Of a DNA stretch of 64,000 bases, positions 7,753-33,089 are shown one piece after another. The DNA is from a virus. The notes below the pieces were generated by a model. The model had not been told where the DNA came from, did no database searches, and saw only the letters and a list, made by a program, of their open reading frames with translations. Position 1 is the first letter of the stretch. The number at the start of each line of letters is the position of its first letter. The DNA is taken from the IMG/VR virus record IMGVR_UViG_3300026484_000402, positions 1 to 64,000 of that record; one strand, 5' to 3'. The position numbers were made by a program, and so were the translations under genes.

Positions 7753-10234
7753 CCAAATTAATTATAAAATCAGTCATTTTCTTAGATAACGCTTTTCCTT
7801 TATTTAAAAACGATGACAACATTCCATCACTAACACTATCAAGCATTTTATGGTAATTGCTATCTATAATCATAAGAACTCTAACCATGCCATTTACTCC
7901 ATCTTTAAGTTGCTCTATATAACTTTTTATAACTGCAACAGGCGTGTCAAGAGTTGCTAAATAACTTATAATAGCAGATTCTAAAACTTTTTTATCTGCT
8001 ATCTCTTTCAACTGTTCAAGCATCTCAGGGTCTATATTTTGTACCATAAAACCATTTTCATCCACTTCTGGAGTTTGCATATTATCATCAGCTTGATTAA
8101 CCTGCTGTTGAGCGCCTATGTCACCCTGTTGTTGCGCTTGAGGCATATCTTGCTGAGTTTGAGCATTAGGTTCTTGTTGCGCTTGAGGTATACCTTGCTG
8201 AATTTGAGCATTAGGTTCTTGTTGCGCTTGCTGCATTTGTTGTTCTTGTGGTTGGGCTCCCTGGGTTTGAGCAACATAATTATCAAGCTGAACTAGTAAA
8301 TCATCTAATGATAAACCTTGTTGTTGAGCAGCTTGAATTAACTGATTTGGGTCTTGCCCTATTTGTTGACACAATTCATTTATTTTATTTATTTTTTCTT
8401 GTTCATTAGGTTGAGCTTGTTGTTGGACCTGATTGTTGACATCAATATTTTGTTCTTCTTCAGATGGTTGTTGTCCAGCAATAGCTCCGGCGGTAGCAAA
8501 TTGTTGCAACGTTGAAGTTTGAATATCAATCGATTGTTTCATTTGAGCTATTAACATCATAAGTTGTTGCATTGTAAGTTGTTGCTGTTGAGCCATTTGA
8601 ATTAATTGCGCTATTTGTTCATTAAGTTGATATAACGGAGTAACAGTATCCGGTTGCTTTGCTGCTTCTTTAATTATTTTACATATTTCTTCTTCTTTAT
8701 AACCCTCGTTTGCAAGCTTAATAACAAAACCTTCTTTTGAATAAAATTCTCCATTGTATTCAATTTTCCCATCTCTTCTTTGAGTTACTTCTGCTGTTTT
8801 TGTAAGCATAAAATTGTTAATATCTTCACTTCTAAAAAAGTCGCATCTATTTCTTGAACAACTAAAAGCTTCTTCTTTCACAAAAAACGCATTATTTTTA
8901 GGTATATACAAAATATCATTATTTCTAATAATTCTTGTAATTTCATTATCAGGAACGACAACTATCTGTTTAATCGGACCAAAAGATTGTTCTATAACAA
9001 TTCTTCCATTTTTTAATTTAATTAATTCTCCAAACAAATATCTTATATAAGAAATTTCATTACCATTGTTGATTAATAAAAACCCACTTTTTTCAGAACT
9101 TGGATTTTCGTCAATCCATTTTTTTATATGGAGTTTTATAACAGAGCTTATACTCATACCGTATTCATCTTTTTTTATACCCATAATAGGATTATCACTT
9201 TTACCAGAGGTTACACAAACTTTTTCAGAAGACAACATCATCTTTTTATCTTCTCCAAACTTTGAAGCAACAATATACGTATATGGGTTTAATTCTTTGT
9301 CAAATAAAGTATATACACCAGAATCCGATACCTCAGTCAAATTTTTAAGAAACGACTCTTTAACTAAATCTTTAAGAGTAGGAGAATTAACTTCTGCAAC
9401 TTTGGTCAATACATCAGAATTTTTTATATAAAAACCTTGTGTTGCTATTTTTTTAAATGCTTTTTCTCTCTCATATTCAGGCAATGTTTTTATTTCGTCT
9501 TTTGTAAAATACACAACTGGTTTTTTATTTGCTGAAGCGACTTTTGAAATGTCAGACAATTTAGCATATCTTTCGATTTCTGAATAATCAGATACCATTT
9601 CAATCATTTTTTTTATATTTTCATTTTTAGAAGCTATTTTAACAATACTTTTTGCAAACTCTTTATCTTTAAAAGCCATATCACTCAACATTGATGATTC
9701 GTTATTTGAAGCAGTCTTATTAATTCCAGGAAGGCCGATTTGTTTGAACTTAAGAGTTTTGAAACCGCTTAAAACATCATCAAAATTTATTTCTTTAGAA
9801 AAATTATTGGATGCAACTTTAGGAGAGTATGTCATAGGTGTAGCAAATAAGCTCCCTATAATTCCTTTATCTATAGCTATCTCCCCTTCCTTATTTTTCA
9901 TATCTTCTTTTGTCAAAACCTGACCTATTGAATTTGAAATAGAATTGACAAGCTTGTTATATAAAAGTTTTGTAAGAGCATAATACCTACCAGTATTATC
10001 GTAACCTATATACGACACACAATCTACATTTCCATCTCTATAAATTATCGGAATAGTTAAATCTATTCCTGAAATAAGTAATTTAAAAGAACCTAAAGCT
10101 TCCGAACCATCTGGATTTATTTCATCCAGGCTATATTTAACAATAAATTGAGCAAAAGCTGGATAATTTGAAATAAGTTGTGAATAAGCTTCATCCAATA
10201 TGTTTTGTTTCATTACATTAATTTTAACGCCCAT
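7742..10234 (-). CDS. Large virion-type protein with Gln-rich region, 830 aa
   Basis: The first 500 residues are a mixed alpha/beta region with at least nine K-x-A motifs (NKTASNN, VKIASKN, SKVASAN, TKTAEVT and others). Residues about 540-710 are extremely Gln-rich and hold a tandem repeat of about 15 residues (AQQEPNAQ.QQ..PQ) seen as 45-bp DNA repeats around 8130-8240. The last 100 residues are helical. It is encoded upstream of the portal cluster, so an internal head or portal-associated role is inferred. No family recognised. ATG at 10234 follows AAGG. Confidence 0.6.
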   Translation of the reverse strand: MGVKINVMKQNILDEAYSQLISNYPAFAQFIVKYSLDEINPDGSEALGSFKLLISGIDLTIPIIYRDGNVDCVSYIGYDNTGRYYALTKLLYNKLVNSISNSIGQVLTKEDMKNKEGEIAIDKGIIGSLFATPMTYSPKVASNNFSKEINFDDVLSGFKTLKFKQIGLPGINKTASNNESSMLSDMAFKDKEFAKSIVKIASKNENIKKMIEMVSDYSEIERYAKLSDISKVASANKKPVVYFTKDEIKTLPEYEREKAFKKIATQGFYIKNSDVLTKVAEVNSPTLKDLVKESFLKNLTEVSDSGVYTLFDKELNPYTYIVASKFGEDKKMMLSSEKVCVTSGKSDNPIMGIKKDEYGMSISSVIKLHIKKWIDENPSSEKSGFLLINNGNEISYIRYLFGELIKLKNGRIVIEQSFGPIKQIVVVPDNEITRIIRNNDILYIPKNNAFFVKEEAFSCSRNRCDFFRSEDINNFMLTKTAEVTQRRDGKIEYNGEFYSKEGFVIKLANEGYKEEEICKIIKEAAKQPDTVTPLYQLNEQIAQLIQMAQQQQLTMQQLMMLIAQMKQSIDIQTSTLQQFATAGAIAGQQPSEEEQNIDVNNQVQQQAQPNEQEKINKINELCQQIGQDPNQLIQAAQQQGLSLDDLLVQLDNYVAQTQGAQPQEQQMQQAQQEPNAQIQQGIPQAQQEPNAQTQQDMPQAQQQGDIGAQQQVNQADDNMQTPEVDENGFMVQNIDPEMLEQLKEIADKKVLESAIISYLATLDTPVAVIKSYIEQLKDGVNGMVRVLMIIDSNYHKMLDSVSDGMLSSFLNKGKALSKKMTDFIINLEGI
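8125..8240 (-). repeat. 45-bp tandem repeat in the Gln-rich coding region
   Basis: Two near-identical 45-bp units, each containing 'gagcattaggttcttgttgc', encode AQQEPNAQ[I/T]QQ[G/D][I/M]PQ, with degenerate flanking CAA-rich copies. Such repeats change length easily by slippage or recombination. Ends are approximate. Confidence 0.6.
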
Positions 10235-10537: not shown

Positions 10538-10744
10538 CTAAGATAGAAGTTGTCTAAAATATTCATCGTTTTGTTTTATTATATAAAAATCTATTTTTAC
10601 ATTTTCTCCTATTTTGTTATACAGTTCTTTTATATATTGTTTTGCTTTTTTCTTAGTTTTAAAAATTGCGACAACTTCTTTTTCATTATAGACATTTTCA
10701 ACATAAACGACATATATTCTTTTAAAATCTGTTTCAATTAACAA
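10538..10744 (-). CDS. Hypothetical protein co-transcribed with rep, 68 aa
   Basis: Begins MLIETDFKRIYVVYVENVYN. A beta-hairpin-like start is followed by a Lys-rich helix (KTKKKAKQYIKELYNKI). It overlaps the 3' end of the rep gene by seven bases and is therefore translationally coupled to it, so a role in replication or copy control is possible but unproven. Confidence 0.55.
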   Translation of the reverse strand: MLIETDFKRIYVVYVENVYNEKEVVAIFKTKKKAKQYIKELYNKIGENVKIDFYIIKQNDEYFRQLLS

Positions 10745-11799
10745 TTTTCATCCATTACTTTTATGATTTTAGAATTAAGTTCAGTAAATTTGTTAACATC
10801 AATTTTGTATAAATCAAAATAGCATCTACCCTCTTTAAGAAAGTTATAATAATCTTCTATCTTTTTTGCAAACATATATACGTTATTATAAATTTCCATA
10901 CTTTCATCTGAATCTATGTAAACTTCTTCACCGTTTGTTGTTTTAGCAAAAATTTTACCATTAACATCTATTCCATACCATACAACTTTGTTATTAAGTT
11001 TACCGACAATAAAATATTTACCAGTACCAGAATATGTTTCACGTAAAAATCTTACAAAATTTTTAATATTTTTAACTTCAGGCTTATCATACCTGTTTTT
11101 TTTATTATCGGTTACATAAAATACAACATTATACACTCTATTTCCATCTGTTTCAGTTTTATATGTAACGTATATATCAGTGTGTTGATTTATTTCTTTT
11201 ATAGCTGGTTCTAATAATCTTCTTTTAATATCATAAAAATCATACTTATCAGAACACATGAAAAAATCTCTAAGTTCATCTATAGAATACGATATTTCTC
11301 TTTTATATTTTTTTTGTATTTCATATTTGTTTTTTAATTCTTCAAAAAGCCTTAATGAATATGGTTTTCTTAAATTTTTCATATTTTTTATATGATATTT
11401 AAGATAATTATTTTTATACTCTATCAATATAGACAACATATCTTTGTCTATATAAAATACTATGTCTTGTCTTTTTTTATATATAACTTTATCTACAAAA
11501 TGTAAAAACATTTCTTCATTGCCATTTTTAATTATTATAACTTTTGACATTAATTCTTTTATTGCTTTTTTAATTTGTTTATATATTACACTTATATCTT
11601 TGTCAAAAAGACTAAACAATTCATCTTTTTTTATAGAATAAATATAGACATCTTCTTCAGTTTTTGTAACAACTATGTTTAATAGCTGAATTGCATAAAT
11701 AGACAAGTCATATTTACTCTTCATTATTATTGAACTTTTTTTTATGCTAAATTCTTCATCTAGCTCAATTACTACAATATCATCTTTATTTTTTCCCAT
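10738..11799 (-). CDS. Rep_3-type replication initiator protein
   Basis: 353 residues. Residues about 14-215 follow the winged-helix pattern of plasmid initiators (Rep_3/RepB): a start with SSIIMKSKYDLSIYAIQLLNIV, then KPYSLRLFEELKNKY, IDELRDFFM, and RLLEPAIKEINQHTDIYVTYKTETDGNRV near 190-220. Such proteins bind iterons and open a nearby AT-rich region. Four iterons lie about 90-205 bases upstream of the start, which strongly supports the call. The last 130 residues are extra compared with small Rep_3 proteins. ATG at 11799 follows AAGGAG. It is typical of plasmids and unusual in a lytic phage, hence a phage-plasmid lifestyle. Confidence 0.85.
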   Translation of the reverse strand: MGKNKDDIVVIELDEEFSIKKSSIIMKSKYDLSIYAIQLLNIVVTKTEEDVYIYSIKKDELFSLFDKDISVIYKQIKKAIKELMSKVIIIKNGNEEMFLHFVDKVIYKKRQDIVFYIDKDMLSILIEYKNNYLKYHIKNMKNLRKPYSLRLFEELKNKYEIQKKYKREISYSIDELRDFFMCSDKYDFYDIKRRLLEPAIKEINQHTDIYVTYKTETDGNRVYNVVFYVTDNKKNRYDKPEVKNIKNFVRFLRETYSGTGKYFIVGKLNNKVVWYGIDVNGKIFAKTTNGEEVYIDSDESMEIYNNVYMFAKKIEDYYNFLKEGRCYFDLYKIDVNKFTELNSKIIKVMDENC

Positions 11800-11890
11800 T
11801 TCTTTCTCCTTCTTTTATTGTATCTTATAATGTAACTATAATATGTAGAAATTTGAAACCTCGTAATCACGGTACTTCCAGCGATTTTTC

Positions 11891-12003
11891 ACCGACAACT
11901 TTGCCAATAAAACAGGGGGTTAAACCGACAACTTTGCCAATAAAAATCGATTTTCACCGACAACTTTGCCAAAATAAAACAGCAACACCGACAACTTTGC
12001 CAA
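11891..12003. repeat. Iteron array: four 17-bp direct repeats (origin of replication)
   Basis: Identical copies of accgacaactttgccaa start at 11891, 11924, 11956 and 11987. The 31-33 base period, about three helical turns, puts all copies on one DNA face. Most are followed by TAAAA. The array lies between the rep gene and a 240-bp AT-rich stretch, the classic layout of an iteron-controlled plasmid origin. Unique 14-16 base gaps and short spacing rule out CRISPR. Confidence 0.85.
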
Positions 12004-12246
12004 TAAAATTTTACCACATTTTTAATGATTTAAGGGGATATTTTTTTGAGGAAAAAAAGCTTTAATTAAAGAAAGTACAAAAGCTCCAAGTTCTGGATAT
12101 TTTTAAGATTTTTATTTTTATTTTTTCAATTTTAAATTTCCTAATAAGGTAAGGAAATAAAACTGATTTTTAATTGTTGATTTACATATAAATTCATATC
12201 TGATATAATTATATCAAATTGATAATAAAAAAACAAAGGAGCTTAC
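12004..12246. other. AT-rich stretch beside the iterons (probable DNA unwinding region)
   Basis: No ORF. It is strongly A/T, with T-rich runs at 12100-12140. Next to an iteron array such a segment usually contains the site opened by Rep. It also holds the promoter of the rightward gene at 12247. AAGCTCC (12081-12087) is complementary to GGAGCTT (12238-12244), which covers that gene's ribosome binding site. Confidence 0.5.
12181..12216 (+). promoter_or_regulatory. Near-consensus promoter with palindromic operator
   Basis: TTTACA (12181-12186), 17-bp spacer, TATAAT (12204-12209): the best canonical sigma-70 promoter in the window. The -10 is embedded in the perfect 16-bp palindrome TGATATAATTATATCA (12201-12216), a natural operator position. 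Confidence 0.6.
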
Positions 12247-13605: not shown

Positions 13606-13800
13606 TTACCCTATTCTTTTAGTTCTTGTTGATATTCTAAATCCTGAATGTCCTCTAGTGCCTATTGACAATCTCATTTTTGCTTTTTCTGATGGGCTTC
13701 TTTTTCTTGATAAAAAACCATATCCTTCTTTTTCAAGAGGATTACATTCATTGTCAACTTCATATTTTAACATTTTTTGAGCAGAAATTTTATATAACAT
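13606..13800 (-). CDS. Small basic protein, 64 aa
   Basis: The C-terminal half is rich in Arg, Lys and Ser (SRKRSPSEKAKMRLSIGTRGHSGFRISTRTKRIG), which suits nucleic-acid binding. A strong AAAAGGAG precedes the ATG, with its own TATAAT promoter at 13827-13832. Not recognised. Confidence 0.55.
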   Translation of the reverse strand: MLYKISAQKMLKYEVDNECNPLEKEGYGFLSRKRSPSEKAKMRLSIGTRGHSGFRISTRTKRIG

Positions 13801-13859: not shown

Positions 13860-14594
13860 GTGATTAACATAGTAGTTTCCAGTAACCTTAAAACAAGTTT
13901 AGATTATTTATTATTAAAATATACTATTCGAAGTATAGAAAAAAACTTTAGAGAACCAGATTATATAATTCATGTTTTTTCCAATTTTAATCCAACTTTC
14001 CTAAAAAATATAATTTATCATAAGGTTCATTTTGAAAAATCACACGATGAGCTTTTTTCAATTCATAATTCTTCAATTGTAAATGCAGCATCAAAATTTA
14101 AAGATTTTATATTTATTCAAAGTGGAAACATAATAAATGACAAAATAACTTCGATGTATACTAAAAATGCAAAAGGATTTAAAAAAGAAAGGAACCTTAT
14201 AGATGAAATAAGTGATGTTTATTCAAAATACGCATACATGACGTATATTGAGATGTCTACAAATTTTGGTCACAATAAAACTATTATCACAGATTTGTTT
14301 TCTCCGCAATTTATAAAATCAAAAGATTTTAACAAGATGATGAACGACTTTAGAACTATACAAACAAACAACTATAACGCTTTAATGCTTTATAGAAATT
14401 ATTTTAATACAATAAAAATTACAAAAATAAACAGAATGAATAGTTTTATAATAGATGAAGAGACATATTATTGTTTTATGAAAAGGTTTAAGAAAGATAA
14501 AGTTTTTTTTATAGAAAAATATGGGCTTAAAAACCCAATTGTAAAAACTTATATAGAAAAGAAATTTGGAAACAAATGTTCTTTTGAATGCTAA
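13860..14594 (+). CDS. Glycosyltransferase-like protein (Stealth-like pattern), 244 aa
   Basis: Start is GTG at 13860 after AAAAAGG. The opening LKYTIRSIEKNF followed by SHDELFSIHNSSIVNAASKFKDFIFI recalls nucleotide-sugar and Stealth-type transferases, in which a similar block ends in a catalytic Asp-Asp; here that position reads QSGN, so catalysis is doubtful. It is a lone rightward gene that ends by overlapping the holin gene tail-to-tail by four bases. It could modify host surface glycans or virion proteins. The similarity is only pattern-level. Confidence 0.35.
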   Translation: MINIVVSSNLKTSLDYLLLKYTIRSIEKNFREPDYIIHVFSNFNPTFLKNIIYHKVHFEKSHDELFSIHNSSIVNAASKFKDFIFIQSGNIINDKITSMYTKNAKGFKKERNLIDEISDVYSKYAYMTYIEMSTNFGHNKTIITDLFSPQFIKSKDFNKMMNDFRTIQTNNYNALMLYRNYFNTIKITKINRMNSFIIDEETYYCFMKRFKKDKVFFIEKYGLKNPIVKTYIEKKFGNKCSFEC

Positions 14595-14848
14595 TGTTTA
14601 TTTGTTACGCCTAGATATTTTTCTGCGGTTCTAAGTCCGGCAAGCACTCCTCCAGTGATAAGAATATCATTTAATCTAGATATTACTTCAGACGGTAATT
14701 CTATATGTATTCCAAATCCAGACAATATAGCATACGCAGTGGGATATACAATATAAATTAACACTACTGACATAACTATTGCAGCGGCTAAAACCGGTCT
14801 CCATGCTGGATTTATAAAATCTATTATTTTTTTTACCGTAGGATTCAT
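14591..14848 (-). CDS. Holin-like membrane protein, 85 aa
   Basis: Two clear membrane spans (about residues 18-40 and 58-76), with a WRPVLAA start before the first span and GLRTAEKYLG near the end, the pattern seen in the GTA/3TM holin family. Holins oligomerise in the inner membrane at a set time and open the way for endolysin. Its start codon overlaps the stop of the histidine kinase gene by four bases (ATGA), so its translation is coupled to that of a signalling protein, an arrangement I do not know from other phages. No signal peptide. Confidence 0.65.
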   Translation of the reverse strand: MNPTVKKIIDFINPAWRPVLAAAIVMSVVLIYIVYPTAYAILSGFGIHIELPSEVISRLNDILITGGVLAGLRTAEKYLGVTNKH

Positions 14849-15891
14849 TTTGTCTCCCTTCTTGCTGGAACTGTTATTTTAATTATTGTTCCGTTCTCAT
14901 CTGAATTAACCACTTCTTCATTACCATTTGCCGAATTTATTATTTCTTTACATAGATACATTCCAAATCCTCTTCCATTGCCTTTTGTGCTTTTTCCTAA
15001 ATCCCATATATTTGCAACCATATCCGGTGGTATTCCTTCTCCATTATCTATTATATAGAATGTGAGAATTTTATTTTCACAATCATATGATATATATTTA
15101 ATTTTTACTATCGAAGCATTTGCGTCTAAGCTGTTTTGTATATGATTATTTAAAACATTTAGCATTTCAACGGGTTTCATTGTTGTTAAATAAAAACATT
15201 TAAGTTCTTCCGAAACATAATAATCAAAATTATATTTATTAAACATACTAAACATTGAAAAAACATTATTTGCTATATTGTATAACGAGTCCTGATTTTT
15301 TAGTTTGTTATCTTTTATGCTTTTTATCATACCTAACGTTTCAAACATGCTATTTATTGAATTTTCTATTAAAGAACTATTTATTTGTATATCTTTTATA
15401 AGTTTAATATTTCCGTCACAATATCCTGTTAAAGAACAATTTTTACAATCTCTCGTTTTTTCATTACAACCATATACTATTCTATCTATGTTTCTTTTTC
15501 CATCTCTCTTTGCAGATGATACGAGTGTTTTTATTATCCTGTTGTTTTCCTCAAAAGCATTTCTTATAGCAATTAAAGGACTCATTAGTTGATGGTCTAT
15601 ATTTTGCATTAACGAATATGTTATTTTGTATGACAGAATATTTTTTTCTTTATTCAAGTATGTTTCAAATGTAATCTTAAAAAGGTTTGATATTTTATAT
15701 AAAAAAACAAAAAAACTTAAAACAATGAATAATGATTTTATTATCCACATCATATGCCCATTATCACAACAAGGGCATTTATTTAAATATTCAAATAAAA
15801 GCTCTATTAAGAATATTGATATTATAAAAATTAGTGTTATTTTTATAGCTTCGTGTATATGTTTTTTTGATTTATTATAATTCTTAAACAT
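14845..15891 (-). CDS. Phage-encoded membrane sensor histidine kinase
   Basis: 348 residues. Two membrane spans (about 14-35 and 48-68) flank a tiny outer loop with C39, C41, C42 and H46. A dimerisation helix carries the H-box DHQLMSPL, with H100 the phosphoacceptor. The ATPase domain shows an N-box (NNHIQNSLDANAS, 248-260), G1 (DNGEGI, 282-287) and G2 (GRGFG, 306-310). All core motifs are intact, so autophosphorylation is expected. Between the two dimerisation helices sits an insertion with C142, C149, C152 and C158, a likely iron-sulfur or zinc site. It lies one base after the response regulator gene and overlaps the holin gene. Confidence 0.85.
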   Translation of the reverse strand: MFKNYNKSKKHIHEAIKITLIFIISIFLIELLFEYLNKCPCCDNGHMMWIIKSLFIVLSFFVFLYKISNLFKITFETYLNKEKNILSYKITYSLMQNIDHQLMSPLIAIRNAFEENNRIIKTLVSSAKRDGKRNIDRIVYGCNEKTRDCKNCSLTGYCDGNIKLIKDIQINSSLIENSINSMFETLGMIKSIKDNKLKNQDSLYNIANNVFSMFSMFNKYNFDYYVSEELKCFYLTTMKPVEMLNVLNNHIQNSLDANASIVKIKYISYDCENKILTFYIIDNGEGIPPDMVANIWDLGKSTKGNGRGFGMYLCKEIINSANGNEEVVNSDENGTIIKITVPARRETK

Positions 15892-15892
15892 A

Positions 15893-16594
15893 TTAATCCT
15901 TAAACAAGCATTCTATAAAAAATTTTGCCCTATCATCAAAATAAGGTGTTTTTGTTAACACATTGTTTTTTAAATAATTTTCGCCTAATAATTTTATTAT
16001 TTTTTCTTTTTCTTTTGAGAAATGGTTATCAAGATAACAGCCAGTAAAAATACAAGTTTTTATATTAGGGTTAATTTTATGCAAATAGTACACAAGGTCT
16101 ATTCCGTCCATAGTATATTTTTTGCCATTTTTTATAATCGATTCTCCAAAAACAATATCTACTATTGCATAATCAAGAGAGCACAATGTTTTGTCGTAAC
16201 TATCACAAGTTTTTTGTATTCTGTAAGGTGCATAACTATCTACTATAGGTCTTATTTCAACATCTTCATAATTAAGTTTTACCGAGTCTATAAGTTTAAG
16301 GGTTTCAATGTCAGTGTAAATATCGACGTTTTTAGTAAGTATTCTTTTTAAATCTTTTAAAACAAGCTCAGTAACCCCTTTATTGTCATCAGTTACTAAT
16401 AGATGTTTTTTATTATCGTCTTTAAAACCGCAAAAATAATTTAAATCTTCCCATTTTTTTAATTTTTCAAACGTCTCTTTTTGTAATTCTTCTTTAATTT
16501 TTGATACCTCAAATATATCTTCTTCAGAGATTTTAAATTTTTGTCTATTTTGAAGAAAATTAAATAATTTATTTTTTATATTGATAAGACTCAT
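15893..16594 (-). CDS. Response regulator with receiver domain only
   Basis: 233 residues. A receiver domain occupies about 63-232: acidic pocket D69-D70 (LLVTDDNKG), phosphoacceptor D146 (DYAIVDIVFG), conserved Thr T184 (CIFTG) and a Lys (K215) before TP. The N-terminal 60 residues are helical and unrecognised, and there is no DNA-binding output domain, so it probably acts by protein-protein contact like CheY-type regulators. It starts by a four-base overlap with the membrane protein gene upstream and is followed by its likely partner kinase. The receiver is longer than usual, with an insertion around 105-135. Confidence 0.8.
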   Translation of the reverse strand: MSLINIKNKLFNFLQNRQKFKISEEDIFEVSKIKEELQKETFEKLKKWEDLNYFCGFKDDNKKHLLVTDDNKGVTELVLKDLKRILTKNVDIYTDIETLKLIDSVKLNYEDVEIRPIVDSYAPYRIQKTCDSYDKTLCSLDYAIVDIVFGESIIKNGKKYTMDGIDLVYYLHKINPNIKTCIFTGCYLDNHFSKEKEKIIKLLGENYLKNNVLTKTPYFDDRAKFFIECLFKD

Positions 16595-17058
16595 TTTATT
16601 CCTTTCACACTTGAAGTAATATCTTTTACTACTTCTGTTGATTTAACCATTGCTTTTTCGTCTAAATGATAAAAAACCATTAAACCGCCTATAAAAAGCA
16701 AGATTCCTAACACTATTGAAAAAATTATTTTAAATGGAGATTCAATAAAGAAACGATACCACTTCTTTTTAGTGCTAGGTTTAGTTTTGTCATACAATAT
16801 ATAAATATACTCTTGTTGTATATCTATAATACACCATGTCATTTCAGAAATTGTCAGTTTTAATTTTTTCTGCTCAGTTTCTATTTTAGAAGCCAATGTA
16901 ATGATAAAATCGCTTATTTCTTCTACGTTTTGAGCTTTAGTTAAATTGTAATAAATTTGTAAGTCGTTATTAGATAATGTGTCGTTATGCAATTCTTTTA
17001 GAACGTTTTTCAATTTTTCAATATATTCTTTTAGTTTTTCATCTTTTACTGAAGACAT
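16591..17058 (-). CDS. Single-span membrane protein of the signalling/lysis operon, 155 aa
   Basis: A helical, charged N-terminal region of about 105 residues is followed by one membrane span (about 110-132, IIFSIVLGILLFIGGLMVFY) and a short tail of about 23 residues. No family recognised. It heads the operon 17058-14591 and overlaps the regulator gene by four bases. Candidate roles are antiholin, or docking partner of the regulator or kinase. Its ATG at 17058 and Shine-Dalgarno lie in the 3' arm of a hairpin. Confidence 0.65.
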   Translation of the reverse strand: MSSVKDEKLKEYIEKLKNVLKELHNDTLSNNDLQIYYNLTKAQNVEEISDFIITLASKIETEQKKLKLTISEMTWCIIDIQQEYIYILYDKTKPSTKKKWYRFFIESPFKIIFSIVLGILLFIGGLMVFYHLDEKAMVKSTEVVKDITSSVKGIK

Positions 17059-17565: not shown

Positions 17566-17951
17566 TTTTGTTCCTTTATTATTTGTTTTAAGACGTCTTC
17601 TTTATCATCTACTATTGAAGACAAGCAAGACCATATGTCGCTTATTTTTATTAAAGTTTCAGCTATACTTAATTCATCCGTAATTAAAGATACCAGGTTT
17701 TTTATAATTTCTGCTTCAGGATTTAAAAATGATGAATGTTCATTATAAAAAACATCACTTAATAATGCTGGTGAGTGCGCTCCTTTTACAAGAGTTAATT
17801 TTATTACGTTTGAAACTAACTCAGCTTCGTCATAGTTTTCTCCTGCCATTTTTAATGCAGATTCTTTTATAGCTAAAGATACATATAAGTCAAAAGAATT
17901 TTGGTCTACATTTGGCTTAATTATTTCAAAAGCATTAATTAAATTATTCAT
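17562..17951 (-). CDS. Hypothetical helical protein between chaperonin and ssb, 129 aa
   Basis: Start taken at MNNLINAFEI (17951), because GGAGG lies six bases upstream; an earlier ATG five codons before would lack one. It overlaps the chaperonin gene by eight bases and ssb by four. Predicted all-helical and acidic with no recognised motif. Its position suggests replication or chaperonin-linked work. Confidence 0.6.
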   Translation of the reverse strand: MNNLINAFEIIKPNVDQNSFDLYVSLAIKESALKMAGENYDEAELVSNVIKLTLVKGAHSPALLSDVFYNEHSSFLNPEAEIIKNLVSLITDELSIAETLIKISDIWSCLSSIVDDKEDVLKQIIKEQK

Positions 17952-19368
17952 GCCCAACCTCCACATTTACAATATATGAAATATTGTTTAAAAGAATGGC
18001 TAATTCAGATGAGGATTTTAACACCTCTTCAATAGTTAATGCAGAATCATAAATGTCTTTTGCGTCATCAATATTGTAACCGTTCTTTTCAATTTTATTT
18101 TTTATAGCTGAAAAAATTTCAACAAAAGCATTAGGATTGGATGTTATATCATTAAGCTTCAAATAACTTTTACCAGCGCCTGGCATTGCGCCGTATATTT
18201 TTGATTTGTAATATGAATGAAGAGCATCGTCAACTCTGTCTCTTATCTCTTTTGCTTTGTTCTCTATTGACGTACCTATTATTATTTTCACAACTTCTCT
18301 TTCAAGTATTGCCAATATGGCTCTATATTTCGCAGCTTCATAATCATCTTTTGAATCACGTAACATAGCTTTGTATTTTTCTATTAGTTTAAAATCTTTT
18401 TCTCCTTCAATGTTCTCAACAGTTAAATAATTGTTATGAAAAAAAGCATTTTTAGGCGGTGTAAAGCCGTCAATATCAACATCTGACAAATATGCTCCAT
18501 AATCAATTCCACTAATAGGAGCATTCAAAGAAGAAGATATTATTTTTATAATATCAACGTTTTTCATAACTTCATCTCCACCTACAACAATAGGTAATAT
18601 ATTCATTACGCCTTGGAGGTGATTTATGGATAAAACACCTATTGCATCATCACTAAACCCGTTTGCTATGATAATAAGATTTTTATATCCGTACTCTCTG
18701 GCTTTTTCCAGTAGTTCAACACACTCCCTTTCTGTTTCCACTGTTCCAGCATTACAAACTATCAGAGGCGAAGGCATTTTAATTTTATTTTGATTTTCAA
18801 ATACTTCTGCAGCCGTCTTGCACCTTATTAATACACCGTTTATTATTTCCACTTTTGATTTTGAGTTAAGTTTTGTTTCAACAACTATATTATCAGATGT
18901 TGACAATTCTAGAGCTGAATTAATTAAGTCTGCCAAATTTTTATCTCCTGATACGGCAGTAAGCACTATTTTGTCTTTTATTTTATCTATATTTTTTATT
19001 TTTATTTGATTAATTTTTTCAACCATTTCTTCTATCTTTGAAGAAAGTTGCTCCTCTGTAATTTGATTGCTTTTTAATGCGTTTAGCATTTTTTCAGCCA
19101 ATACGATTGTTGATGTTGTGCCGTCACCGGCTTTCCTTAATACAGACTCAGAGGCTTCTTTTATAACCGTTACTATGTTGTTTACATATGGGTTGTTGCT
19201 TCTTATAAGTCTTAAACATGAAACACCGTCTTTTGTTGTGTGAACATTGTGCTCATTTCCTATTACAACATATTTTCCTGCCGGTCCTAAAGTTTCAGAA
19301 ACAAATCCGCTTACGTCTGATAATATCTTTTCTATCGCAGTAGGTTTTGCGAAATTGTACATTTCCAT
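17944..19368 (-). CDS. groEL: GroEL-like chaperonin (Cpn60)
   Basis: 474 residues against about 540 in bacterial GroEL. ATP-site motifs are in order: TLGPAGK (26-32), TTKDGVS (44-50) and AGDGTTS (80-86). The returning equatorial half shows VEDALH-like VDDALHSYY and GAMPGAGKSYL in place of GVVAGGGVALL. The shortening falls mainly in the apical and intermediate parts and the GGM tail. Chaperonins fold proteins in a barrel with a GroES lid; a GroES-like gene lies at 46759. It starts at the stop of the primase gene after AAGGAG. Confidence 0.85.
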   Translation of the reverse strand: MEMYNFAKPTAIEKILSDVSGFVSETLGPAGKYVVIGNEHNVHTTKDGVSCLRLIRSNNPYVNNIVTVIKEASESVLRKAGDGTTSTIVLAEKMLNALKSNQITEEQLSSKIEEMVEKINQIKIKNIDKIKDKIVLTAVSGDKNLADLINSALELSTSDNIVVETKLNSKSKVEIINGVLIRCKTAAEVFENQNKIKMPSPLIVCNAGTVETERECVELLEKAREYGYKNLIIIANGFSDDAIGVLSINHLQGVMNILPIVVGGDEVMKNVDIIKIISSSLNAPISGIDYGAYLSDVDIDGFTPPKNAFFHNNYLTVENIEGEKDFKLIEKYKAMLRDSKDDYEAAKYRAILAILEREVVKIIIGTSIENKAKEIRDRVDDALHSYYKSKIYGAMPGAGKSYLKLNDITSNPNAFVEIFSAIKNKIEKNGYNIDDAKDIYDSALTIEEVLKSSSELAILLNNISYIVNVEVGHE

Positions 19369-26176: not shown

Positions 26177-26569
26177 TTAGTATTCCGGCAAGTATTTAGG
26201 TCTTTTTCCTTTATTAGCCCATCTGTCTTTAATGTTTAATGATTGATTAACCCATTCCAAATTATTCACTTGATAATCACTTCTGTTTCCATTTTTGTGA
26301 TTTACAATATTGTAATCCGGTCTTGGTTTAGGTAAAAATGTCTCCGCAACCGCCCTATGTATTTTTACTTCATGTTTTTTCCCGTCTGACATAAGGGTTA
26401 CTCTGGGATATCCCATCCATGTCCGTCCCCTTAAAATTTTTTTTGTTTTAGCATTCCTTATACCTAGAAAGGGATGAACTTCATAATTGTTAAATTTTTC
26501 AAGTCTTTTCCATTGAGCTGAAGATAGTGAATGCAGAGATAGGTGAGATGTTTCTACCTGTTGTCCCAT
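26177..26569 (-). CDS. HNH homing-type endonuclease
   Basis: 130 residues. An N-terminal NUMOD4-like region (YEVHPFLGIRN) is followed by an HNH core with KIHRAVAETFLP and NHKNGNRSDYQVNNLEWVN (H...N...N). Such free-standing nucleases in phage operons are usually mobile. It overlaps the endolysin gene by 16 bases and precedes recT, so it may have been inserted between them. Confidence 0.8.
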   Translation of the reverse strand: MGQQVETSHLSLHSLSSAQWKRLEKFNNYEVHPFLGIRNAKTKKILRGRTWMGYPRVTLMSDGKKHEVKIHRAVAETFLPKPRPDYNIVNHKNGNRSDYQVNNLEWVNQSLNIKDRWANKGKRPKYLPEY

Positions 26570-26916
26570 CTTGCCTTACCTTCTCTAACGTCTACGTGAG
26601 TTCTACCAATATATCTTCCTATTCCATATTTGTTTGGATATTTACTTTCAAGATAATCAGCAACTGCATCTTGATTTTCCCCTAAATTTAAAACTACAAA
26701 ATCACATGCCATACCTTTTGTATGCATAGAATTTGGACTACCGCCTACAGCTTTGTTGTGCTCTATACATCTACACCCAGAGTTTATTTTAATAGGGGAA
26801 TTAAAATGTGCTCTAACATCTTCTAAAACCTCTAAAAGTTCACTATCCATAGCAGCAAAACCACAACCACATTTACATGCAAATTCACTTCTTTTAAAAT
26901 GCCCTTTACTATACAT
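26554..26916 (-). CDS. M15A-type peptidase (endolysin)
   Basis: 120 residues. It has the Peptidase_M15_3 pattern with FKRSEFACKCGCG, INSGCRCIEHNKAVGGSPNSMH, GMACDFVV and HVDVREGKARW, giving the His/Asp/His zinc site of D-Ala carboxypeptidase-like endolysins that cut the peptidoglycan peptide. ATG at 26916 is chosen because AAAAAGG precedes it; the upstream ATG lies within the promoter. No signal peptide, so export needs the holin. Odd placement: it heads the recombination operon. Confidence 0.85.
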   Translation of the reverse strand: MYSKGHFKRSEFACKCGCGFAAMDSELLEVLEDVRAHFNSPIKINSGCRCIEHNKAVGGSPNSMHTKGMACDFVVLNLGENQDAVADYLESKYPNKYGIGRYIGRTHVDVREGKARWDNR

Positions 26917-26924
26917 ATGTATCC

Positions 26925-26949
26925 TTTTTGTGTAATTATAACACAAAAA
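26925..26949 (-). promoter_or_regulatory. Promoter of the endolysin-recombination-replication operon inside a hairpin
   Basis: A perfect 9-bp inverted repeat, on the minus strand TTTTTGTGT (26941-26949) and ACACAAAAA (26925-26933), has a seven-base loop containing the -10 TATAAT (26935-26940). The Shine-Dalgarno AAAAAGG overlaps the 3' arm. It could be an operator centred on the -10, or an RNA hairpin blocking translation of read-through RNA, or both. Confidence 0.55.
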
Positions 26950-30447: not shown

Positions 30448-32187
30448 ATGGACGCTGTATCTGCTTTAAACAGTTTTCTTCCAGATGAATTTCATATTAA
30501 AAAAAGCGACTTACCACTTACAAAAGCAAAATTAAATAAGTTATTAACAGAATATGCTAAAAAATATCCTGACCACTACGCAAAAAATATACATAAAATA
30601 GGTGATTTAGGAGAAGAGTTGGCATACTTACACGGACATCACGTAGGTATAAATGATTTGCTGCACCCCAATAGAAAAAAAATAGAATCTTTTTTAGAAA
30701 AAGAAAATAAAAAACTGTCTTTAATGAGTACAGAAAAGAAAAAAGAACATTTAATAAAATTATTTGATAAAGTCCAAGAGTTAACTATGGAACCTGATGG
30801 CAACCATTTAGTTGACCAAGGAAAATCGAGAAGTAGAGGAAATCCAGCTACAATAACTAGAACAATTGGGGCTTCAGTATATACTGTAGATATGAATTCT
30901 GAGCCATTTCCTTTCCTAATTAAAAATTCATTATCATCAGGGTATAGGAGTCATGAAATGTTTGCTGCAGGTTCCCAAGCCAGATATGCAGCCGTACAAT
31001 CTGCTACTTCAACATCTGAACCTGGAGCTATGAGTAAAGTTTTAGTGGCTAACACAGAACATTTAAAAATATGTTGTAAAGACTGTGGCACTAAAAATGG
31101 TATTGAATATAAAATTGATGACTCCCAAATAATAGGAAGATATGAAGCAGGCACCAACAGATTAATAACTAAAGATTACGTTAATCAATTGAAAAAACAA
31201 AGAAAAAAAACAATAGTAGTAAGAGACCCTATTACTTGTCAAGCTAAAGACGGAATATGCGCAATGTGTTATGGACATAATGCAATGGGTAAATTATATG
31301 AACCAGGGCACAATATAGGCATTCAGGCTTCACAAACAGTAGGTGAAAAAGCAACTCAGCTTGTTTTGTCAGCTAAACATAACATAAAAGGTAAATTAAC
31401 ATCTAATATACCTACAGGTTTTGAAGCACAAAAAATCTTATTAAATACTCCTAAATCTTTTAGAGGGAAAGCCACTATATCAACTACAGATGGTAAAGTT
31501 GAAAAAATAGAAAGATTAAACACTGGTGGATATAATGTAGTAATAGCGGGGAAAACTCATTATATTTCTCCAGAAGTCAAACCAAAAGTCAAAGTTGGCG
31601 ATGAGGTTTTCAAAGGGCAAACGTTAAGCACAGGTTTAGCTTCCCCAAGAGAAATAATGGAGCATTCCGGAGTGTATCAAGCTAGAAAATATACCGTAGA
31701 TAAATTATATGAGGCAAATGGCGGAGATATAGATAAAAGAGTGTTTGGAGTTTTAGCAAGGGGATATTTGGAATTAGCTAAACATAAAAAAGATGAAATG
31801 CACGAATTACATAATTATGATGCATTATTGCACACTATAGAAGAGCCTAATACACATATTGTCAAGGTTTCAGATAGACAGATTACAAATAAATATCTAG
31901 CCCAGCCTTTTTTACATTATAGTCCTGGTACTAAAATTACACCTGGAATAGTTAAAAAAATGAAACAACACGGATTAAAAGAAGTAAAGGTATCTCATAA
32001 TCCATTTCCTATTGTACCAGTATATAAAACTTATGAACAAAAACCATTGGCAAATACAACAATTTGGCAGAAAATGAATTATAGAGGAATTAAAAAAGGA
32101 TTAACAGGAGAGCTTTTATATAATAAAGAAACTGATATCAATAGATTGCAAAGTGATAGGGCTAAATACACTCTTGGGAGATTGTAA
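30448..32187 (+). CDS. Orphan RNA polymerase beta'-like protein (C-terminal half of RpoC)
   Basis: 579 residues, collinear with the second half of bacterial beta': F-loop and bridge-helix region (about 115-200), complete zinc-2 site C213, C264, C271, C274 (spacing C-x6-C-x2-C as in RpoC), trigger-loop start GIQASQTVGEKATQL (291-305), and the C-terminal VKVGDEVFKGQTLS...GVYQARKYTVDKLYEANGGDIDKR block (380-430). The catalytic NADFDGD barrel is absent. In the trigger loop the RpoC Met and Arg positions read Leu and Ser, while the His is kept. It may be one piece of a split phage polymerase, a virion protein, or a decoy. First gene of the rightward virion operon. Confidence 0.8.
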   Translation: MDAVSALNSFLPDEFHIKKSDLPLTKAKLNKLLTEYAKKYPDHYAKNIHKIGDLGEELAYLHGHHVGINDLLHPNRKKIESFLEKENKKLSLMSTEKKKEHLIKLFDKVQELTMEPDGNHLVDQGKSRSRGNPATITRTIGASVYTVDMNSEPFPFLIKNSLSSGYRSHEMFAAGSQARYAAVQSATSTSEPGAMSKVLVANTEHLKICCKDCGTKNGIEYKIDDSQIIGRYEAGTNRLITKDYVNQLKKQRKKTIVVRDPITCQAKDGICAMCYGHNAMGKLYEPGHNIGIQASQTVGEKATQLVLSAKHNIKGKLTSNIPTGFEAQKILLNTPKSFRGKATISTTDGKVEKIERLNTGGYNVVIAGKTHYISPEVKPKVKVGDEVFKGQTLSTGLASPREIMEHSGVYQARKYTVDKLYEANGGDIDKRVFGVLARGYLELAKHKKDEMHELHNYDALLHTIEEPNTHIVKVSDRQITNKYLAQPFLHYSPGTKITPGIVKKMKQHGLKEVKVSHNPFPIVPVYKTYEQKPLANTTIWQKMNYRGIKKGLTGELLYNKETDINRLQSDRAKYTLGRL

Positions 32188-32534: not shown

Positions 32535-32821
32535 TATTGGTAGGAATAGGAACTATTTTAATTACCTTTTTGGGCTTGTTTGCTAAATTAAAATCAACAG
32601 AACATCGTGTGGAAGATTTAGAGAATGAAAACGAGAATATTAAACAGCAAAATGAAGCTTTAAAACAAAATGTAGAAGTTAAAAAAGAAGAGCTTAACTT
32701 ATCAAACGTGCAGCATAAAATAGAAAAAGAATTTGATACTGCCCAAAAGAAAAAAGAAATTGAAATTGAAGAAAAAATTACAAAGGCTGAAGATGGTGAA
32801 AAAATTACTATTACTATTTAG
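32513..32821 (+). CDS. Inner-membrane spanin (Rz-like)
   Basis: 102 residues: an N-terminal membrane anchor (about 5-24, IKLILVGIGTILITFLGLFA), then a long charged coiled coil to the end. This is the Rz-type architecture, in which the coil crosses the periplasm and joins an outer-membrane lipoprotein to fuse the membranes at lysis. AAGGAG precedes the ATG. The lipoprotein gene starts inside its 3' end in another frame. Confidence 0.7.
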   Translation: MLFRIKLILVGIGTILITFLGLFAKLKSTEHRVEDLENENENIKQQNEALKQNVEVKKEELNLSNVQHKIEKEFDTAQKKKEIEIEEKITKAEDGEKITITI

Positions 32822-33089
32822 TTCATTGTTTATTATCGGTTGTGCACAAAAAAAAGTTGTATATATAAAAAACAAATGCCCGTCTTTTAGGTATGAACCA
32901 AGCATCCCTAAAAGTAAGACTTTTACTTTTTCAAGTAAAAATGATAAAATTGTTTTATCAAAGCAGGATTTTAAAGAAATTTTAAAAAATTATTCTTTTA
33001 TGAAAAATGAACTAAATCAAACAAAAAAATATATAAAAGAATACAACAAAATGATACAAAGGATTAACAATGTCAGATATAGTAACTAA
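32793..33089 (+). CDS. Outer-membrane spanin lipoprotein (Rz1-like)
   Basis: 98 residues from MVKKLLLLFSSLFIIGC. The signal sequence ends in the lipobox FIIGC with Cys17 as lipidation site, followed by a coiled-coil C-terminus. The ATG at 32793 overlaps the i-spanin stop by 29 bases, the overlapped arrangement known for spanin pairs. A longer in-frame reading from 32733 is rejected because it would bury the signal peptide. It completes the lysis set with the holin and endolysin. Confidence 0.75.
   Translation: MVKKLLLLFSSLFIIGCAQKKVVYIKNKCPSFRYEPSIPKSKTFTFSSKNDKIVLSKQDFKEILKNYSFMKNELNQTKKYIKEYNKMIQRINNVRYSN

Follow-up and report, generated by a model that had tools for sequence, protein, structure and literature searches.

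A 64,000-nucleotide stretch of viral DNA (positions 1 to 64,000 of the 80,340-bp IMG/VR virus record IMGVR_UViG_3300026484_000402; hereafter the window) encodes a two-component system whose genes run directly into a holin-like gene. Three of these genes, for a small membrane protein, a response regulator and a membrane histidine kinase, make up the constant core of what homology indicates is a recurrent phage module; the conserved two-component module is real and, as far as we have searched, previously undescribed. Its conserved active sites and a structural model together give good support to a phosphorelay that appears functional and whose receiver stands alone, lacking a DNA-binding domain. 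A preliminary description had proposed a phage two-component system tied to a holin. The phosphorelay parts, the shared gene block and two linkages speak for this proposal, but the holin is not a constant member of the module. Lysis control is the best single explanation of the module, with the chances for and against it about evenly balanced.

Four leftward genes occupy window positions 14591-17058, exactly where the preliminary description had placed them and with the junctions it gave. They encode, in order, a 155-residue membrane protein, a 233-residue regulator, a 348-residue kinase and an 85-residue holin-like protein; the first and third junctions are 4-bp overlaps, the second a 1-bp gap. 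A close relative, record G001 (176,653 bp), is colinear with nearly the entire record at 69-86% DNA identity and keeps all four genes. Between the window and G001, the ratio of nonsynonymous to synonymous substitution rates (dN/dS) is 0.052 for the membrane protein, 0.050 for the regulator, 0.053 for the kinase and 0.087 for the holin, all approximate because dS (1.1-1.6) is near saturation. Judged by these ratios, the four genes are under strong purifying selection, and the system is therefore not a recent or decaying passenger; a dN/dS of ~0.05 together with the conserved active sites rules out a decayed, non-functional system. The four-gene observation is far beyond chance.

The identity of the kinase is secure: its HATPase_c match (53.7 bits) clears the 26.4-bit cut-off, and its best PDB matches are sensor kinases. 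The catalytic elements named in the preliminary description, namely H100 (in the predicted H-box HQLMSPL), the N-box (N249/N253), the G1 box (D282-G284-G286) and the G2 box (G308/G310), are all present and are conserved in distant homologues. H100, P105, N249, N253, G308 and G310 are invariant in 11 kinase homologues and the G1 residues nearly so, with the homologues outside G001 sharing ~23-35% identity with the window kinase. The kinase has two transmembrane segments, and its external loop, which includes CPCC, is 13 residues long; the external loops of relatives span 27-93 residues, and a C-x4-C motif is common to several of the longer ones. A four-cysteine insert (C142/C149/C152/C158) lies between the predicted dimerisation helices. 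This insert, which separates the H-box from the next predicted helix, carries two to four cysteines in seven of the eight kinases compared, and contains CxxC in the window, G001, G003, G029 and G031. These cysteine elements may have a redox or metal role; redox-sensing kinases are known (e.g. PMC6456745). At one locus, L091, an extra gene (7880-8476, + strand) lies between the regulator and the kinase and encodes a two-transmembrane protein with a cysteine-containing external domain, like a detached sensor.

The regulator consists of a partly amphipathic N-terminal extension followed by a receiver. Searches of Pfam (Response_reg, PF00072), PHROG and NCBIfam returned no receiver match. D69 and D70 (the acid pair) and D146 (the phospho-acceptor) are invariant in 11 regulator homologues, and T184 and K215 are nearly so: only the G029 regulator departs, with Ser at position 184 and a Lys out of alignment. 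The receiver residues had thus been read correctly, and homologues at 18-28% identity keep the active site. An AlphaFold model built with eight homologues has a mean predicted local distance difference test score (pLDDT) of 78.7, with 65-95 in blocks of the receiver part (with two sequences the pLDDT was 39, which is unusable). It adopts the alternating strand-helix order of a CheY-like receiver; the phospho-acceptor is followed by an inserted small hairpin. Foldseek comparison with the PDB gave 70 matches at E <= 0.001; the 50 listed are without exception receiver domains or proteins that contain one, including GacS D1, CheY, Spo0F and RcsB. A phmmer search of the PDB with the regulator gave only chance matches, among them troponin C, which was hit through a stretch falsely resembling an EF-hand. 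On its conserved residues and modelled fold, the regulator is a divergent receiver. The protein as modelled ends after helix alpha5 with no C-terminal effector domain, in agreement with the earlier claim that a DNA-binding domain is absent. The N-terminal extensions of the regulators tend to be amphipathic, which hints that the regulator may associate with the membrane.

The N-terminal part of the membrane protein is helical and cytosolic, and a single C-terminal transmembrane segment (~residues 111-129) and a short tail follow; family searches placed the protein in no family of known function. Homologues occupy the same position in G001, G003, G007, G008, G029, G031, L090, L091 and L092, so that it is the near-constant first gene of the module, missing only from G030. 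It is likely the partner or output of the regulator and, by its distribution, would be a more constant candidate target of the phosphorylation signal than the holin.

The holin assignment holds in part. A PHROG match and homology to full holins favor it, but Pfam GTA_holin_3TM scores only 13.3 bits against a cut-off of 24.8. The 85-residue protein is without the N-terminal part of that family and has one clear transmembrane segment by hydropathy; its WRP and GxRxxEK motifs (WRP...GLRTAEKYLG) align with full-length holins, and it is homologous to the 136-residue holin of G008 (BLASTP pairwise E 6e-7). The G007 and G008 holins, at 53.9 and 47.4 bits, lie well above the Pfam cut-off of 24.8. Among the open reading frames scanned, it is the sole holin recognised in the 80-kb record; a 76-residue frame with two transmembrane segments at 1083-1313 has no family match. 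The M15 endolysin shows no signal peptide by eye and therefore would need a holin, and the Rz-like spanin candidate points to a Gram-negative host. A lytic-enzyme-like protein matches phrog_600, found in enterobacterial and Vibrio phages, a match that does not fix the host.

To follow the module beyond this phage, we used the RNA polymerase-like protein as a bridge to 33 related viral contigs, as G001 was all that direct queries with proteins of the window had found; kinase and regulator profiles were then run on the related records, plus two further collection scans. Kinase-regulator pairs occur at 11 loci (the window, G001, G003, G007, G008, G029, G030, G031, L090, L091 and L092). The same four-gene order is found in G001; elsewhere the holin lies at the opposite end or does not adjoin the module. 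In the window and G001 the holin follows the kinase at the 3' end, whereas in G007 and G008 it stands at the 5' end, ahead of the membrane protein, regulator and kinase, with spacings of -4 to 31 bp and a divergent GH108 endolysin (E ~1e-18) adjoining it. In the kinase tree, the holin-linked members form two separated, fully supported pairs, and 0% of bootstrap trees have a single origin, though long branches meet in this tree. The tree thus forces two changes, and the holin linkage arose twice independently in phages. Roughly estimated from ~200 genes per genome, chance adjacency to a holin is ~1% per lineage, so that two independent adjacencies are unlikely to be accidental.

Several results weigh against a role in lysis. 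In G003, G031, G029, G030, L090, L091 and L092 the holin does not border the module. The core sits between tail-fibre-like genes in G003 and G031 and between helicase and head genes in G029; the last gene of the module in G030, L090 and L092 encodes a small secreted protein, and in L090 and L092 an outer-membrane-protein-like gene comes next. No member of the GTA_holin_3TM family turned up in G003-G006 or G029-G031, which may carry holins of other families. In G002, the record nearest to the window and G001 by its RNA polymerase-like gene (73%), the orthologous holin follows that gene, and the 24.6-kb fragment contains no kinase or regulator. A module that always accompanies a holin is ruled out by G002, G003, G029-G031 and L090-L092, and the holin cannot be kept as a fixed module part when most other lineages place the core by other genes. 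In the window itself, the operon follows replication genes and the lysis genes are scattered in the genome, and co-transcription is consequently no proof of joint function; insertion hot spots can also lie in the neighborhood of lysis genes. As for the phosphorelay, the L092 kinase is without the G1 box (1 of 11 homologues) and Pfam HisKA does not recognise the window kinase, HisKA matches being weak in three of eight homologues (best E 0.014). Promoter and terminator scans did no better than on shuffled sequence.

The core may be a general cassette for envelope sensing or host modulation that has nothing to do with lysis, brought near holins by coincidence or by insertion hot spots. Its placement in several lineages by tail-fibre genes, by replication genes, or by genes for a small secreted and an outer-membrane protein fits such a cassette, as does the G002 holin, which stands apart from the module. 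The window holin also keeps as its neighbor the 64-residue MLYKIS gene (with the 244-residue gene between), which is found in G002 as well, so that the module may have been inserted next to the holin. Such a cassette would, however, have to produce two independent adjacencies in ~5-7 lineages, unlikely by chance (~0.1-0.2%), and it leaves the 4-bp kinase-holin overlap and the tight G007/G008 spacing unexplained; we judge it rather unlikely. A phage-owned membrane phosphorelay that adjusts lysis in some phages is, by our assessment, an even proposition.

The regions downstream of the kinase at L090 8837-10365, L092 8627-10023 and L066 7874-8158 (all on the + strand) encode a family of ~90-residue secreted proteins with a shared GW-RV pattern and, in L090 and L092, the outer-membrane-protein-like gene as well. 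That gene, which is split into two open reading frames in L092, encodes a signal peptide and a C-terminal Phe. The secreted and outer-membrane-protein-like proteins may partner the relay as ligand or receptor. L090 and L092 adjoin primase, exonuclease/RNase H-like and DNA polymerase genes and therefore appear to belong to another phage lineage.

How might a phosphorelay adjust lysis? We infer phosphotransfer, the signal, membrane-protein contact and lysis control as the steps of the pathway. The two-transmembrane kinase, through its external and internal cysteine elements, would sense the membrane, redox or infection state and autophosphorylate at H100, and the phosphate would pass from H100 to D146 of the receiver. 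Because it has no DNA-binding domain, the receiver would act by protein contact, within a relay confined to the cytoplasmic membrane, and its likeliest first partner would be the 155-residue single-span membrane protein. In the window lineage and in G007/G008, the pathway would most likely end in changed holin assembly, that is, in lysis timing. In its full form, where some large phages time lysis by their own His-Asp phosphorelay, the kinase senses envelope or redox state and the receiver gates the holin post-translationally via the membrane protein, the proposal falls somewhat short of an even chance.

The same parts could report superinfection or a competing phage, through adsorption or DNA entry, with an output that delays lysis or blocks further infection as in T4. 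The partner genes have envelope-located products (holin, secreted peptide, outer-membrane protein), the longer kinases carry external domains of 58-93 residues, several with a conserved C-x4-C, and the periplasmic T4 antiholin RI senses superinfection and stops the holin (PMC11413866, PMC8385771). However, we saw nothing that relates the sequences to RI or to other known antiholins, and the ~13-residue loop of the window kinase leaves little room for binding DNA or a phage protein; we consider a superinfection sensor improbable.

Single-domain receivers often work inside relays, and the regulator could instead feed a host phosphorelay, altering host transcription, motility or envelope while the holin is a bystander. 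Spo0F and CheY are indeed among its closest solved folds. Yet the regulator has its own kinase and membrane partner in a fixed order, which argues for a self-contained circuit, and contig searches of an 84,980-species genome set, at the sensitivity used, found no cellular relative of the regulator or kinase; we see only a slim chance for this explanation.

The phage itself is of low GC content and encodes DnaB, DnaG, SSB, RecT, an exonuclease, a Cpn60-like protein, a Rep3-type initiator, an RNA polymerase-like protein and a head protease. The RNA polymerase-like gene is common to Salmonella phage Arash and Vibrio phages D181, D148 and D69 (~30% identity in Arash and D181). A kinase search gave no match in large isolated phages such as Arash and D181; searches of isolated phages with two relatives' regulators gave none, and with the window regulator a single irrelevant tail-fibre match (E 0.6). 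Four 27-bp direct repeats, ~32 bp apart (11886-12008), adjoin the Rep3-type initiator gene (10738-11799); they are iteron-like, suggesting a plasmid-style origin in a large phage, and G002 apparently has repeats beside its corresponding gene too. The 244-residue protein convergent with the holin resembles a GT-A-type glycosyltransferase by eye and has no family match. The peptide M-[LI]-Y-K-I-[AS] begins several unrelated small phage proteins and is a possible targeting or processing signal.

Table 1. Coordinates of the module genes and other features (window positions unless a locus is named)
Feature	Coordinates	Strand	Evidence
Membrane protein, 155 aa	16591-17058	-	Open reading frame; single transmembrane segment; dN/dS 0.05
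Single-domain response regulator, 233 aa	15893-16594	-	11-homologue alignment; AlphaFold; Foldseek PDB
Membrane histidine kinase, 348 aa	14845-15891	-	Pfam PF02518 3.4e-14; PDB kinase match 7e-9
GTA_holin_3TM-like short holin, 85 aa	14591-14848	-	phrog_3427 holin 6.8e-5; Pfam PF11351 sub-threshold
244-aa protein	13860-14594	+	Convergent with holin, 4-bp overlap; in G001, dN/dS 0.05
M-[LI]-Y-K-I-[AS] proteins	13606-13800; L002 11424-12043, 13383-14399	- (window)	Shared N-terminal peptide
Cpn60-like chaperonin, divergent	17944-19368	-	PF00118 3.4e-19; in replication gene run
Endolysin (peptidase M15 family)	26554-26946	-	phrog_894 5.6e-41; Peptidase_M15_3 4.9e-26; frame located by motif
RNA polymerase-like protein	30448-32187	+	phrog_25354 5.6e-34; trigger-loop-like GEKATQL motif
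Rz-like spanin candidate	32733-33089	+	phrog_812 1.4e-4; lipoprotein-like signal LFIIGC

Full-text literature searches, subscription papers aside, revealed no precedent for a phage two-component system linked to a holin, in line with the preliminary description, whose author knew of none. The nearest systems each share one aspect. LytST-LrgAB/CidAB of Streptococcus and Staphylococcus links a two-component system to holin-like membrane proteins and lysis (PMC3507848), but it is chromosomal, its LytR has a LytTR DNA-binding domain and acts by transcription, and its kinase and holin-like proteins belong to other families. Lysis inhibition in T4 (holin T with antiholins RI/RIII) is a phage-encoded, environmental control of holin timing via membrane-protein contact (PMC11413866, PMC8385771), but employs no kinase or receiver, RI binding the holin directly in the periplasm. 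The agr genes of the C. difficile phage phiCDHM1 (AgrB, AgrC, AgrD) include a phage-encoded HATPase_c sensor kinase, but they form a host-derived quorum-sensing cassette with no response regulator and no reported holin linkage (PMC3901668). In engineered cyanobacteria, a green-light two-component system commands phage lysis genes (PMC4021604); that system is synthetic and works by inducible expression, whereas the phage module is natural and has no DNA-binding output. Jumbo phages encode divergent Rec domains, likewise receiver-fold proteins of large phages, but these are described as never occurring with histidine kinases and as linked to NAD/ADP-ribose enzymes (PMC7824862), while the receivers described here always lie beside a kinase.

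For a lytic phage, no life-history decision matters more than when to lyse, and the natural sensing mechanisms known for lysis, such as T4 lysis inhibition, rely on antiholins. If lysis control by the phosphorelay is true, the module would provide a new route for a virus to sense its environment and act on lysis, without a DNA-binding output.

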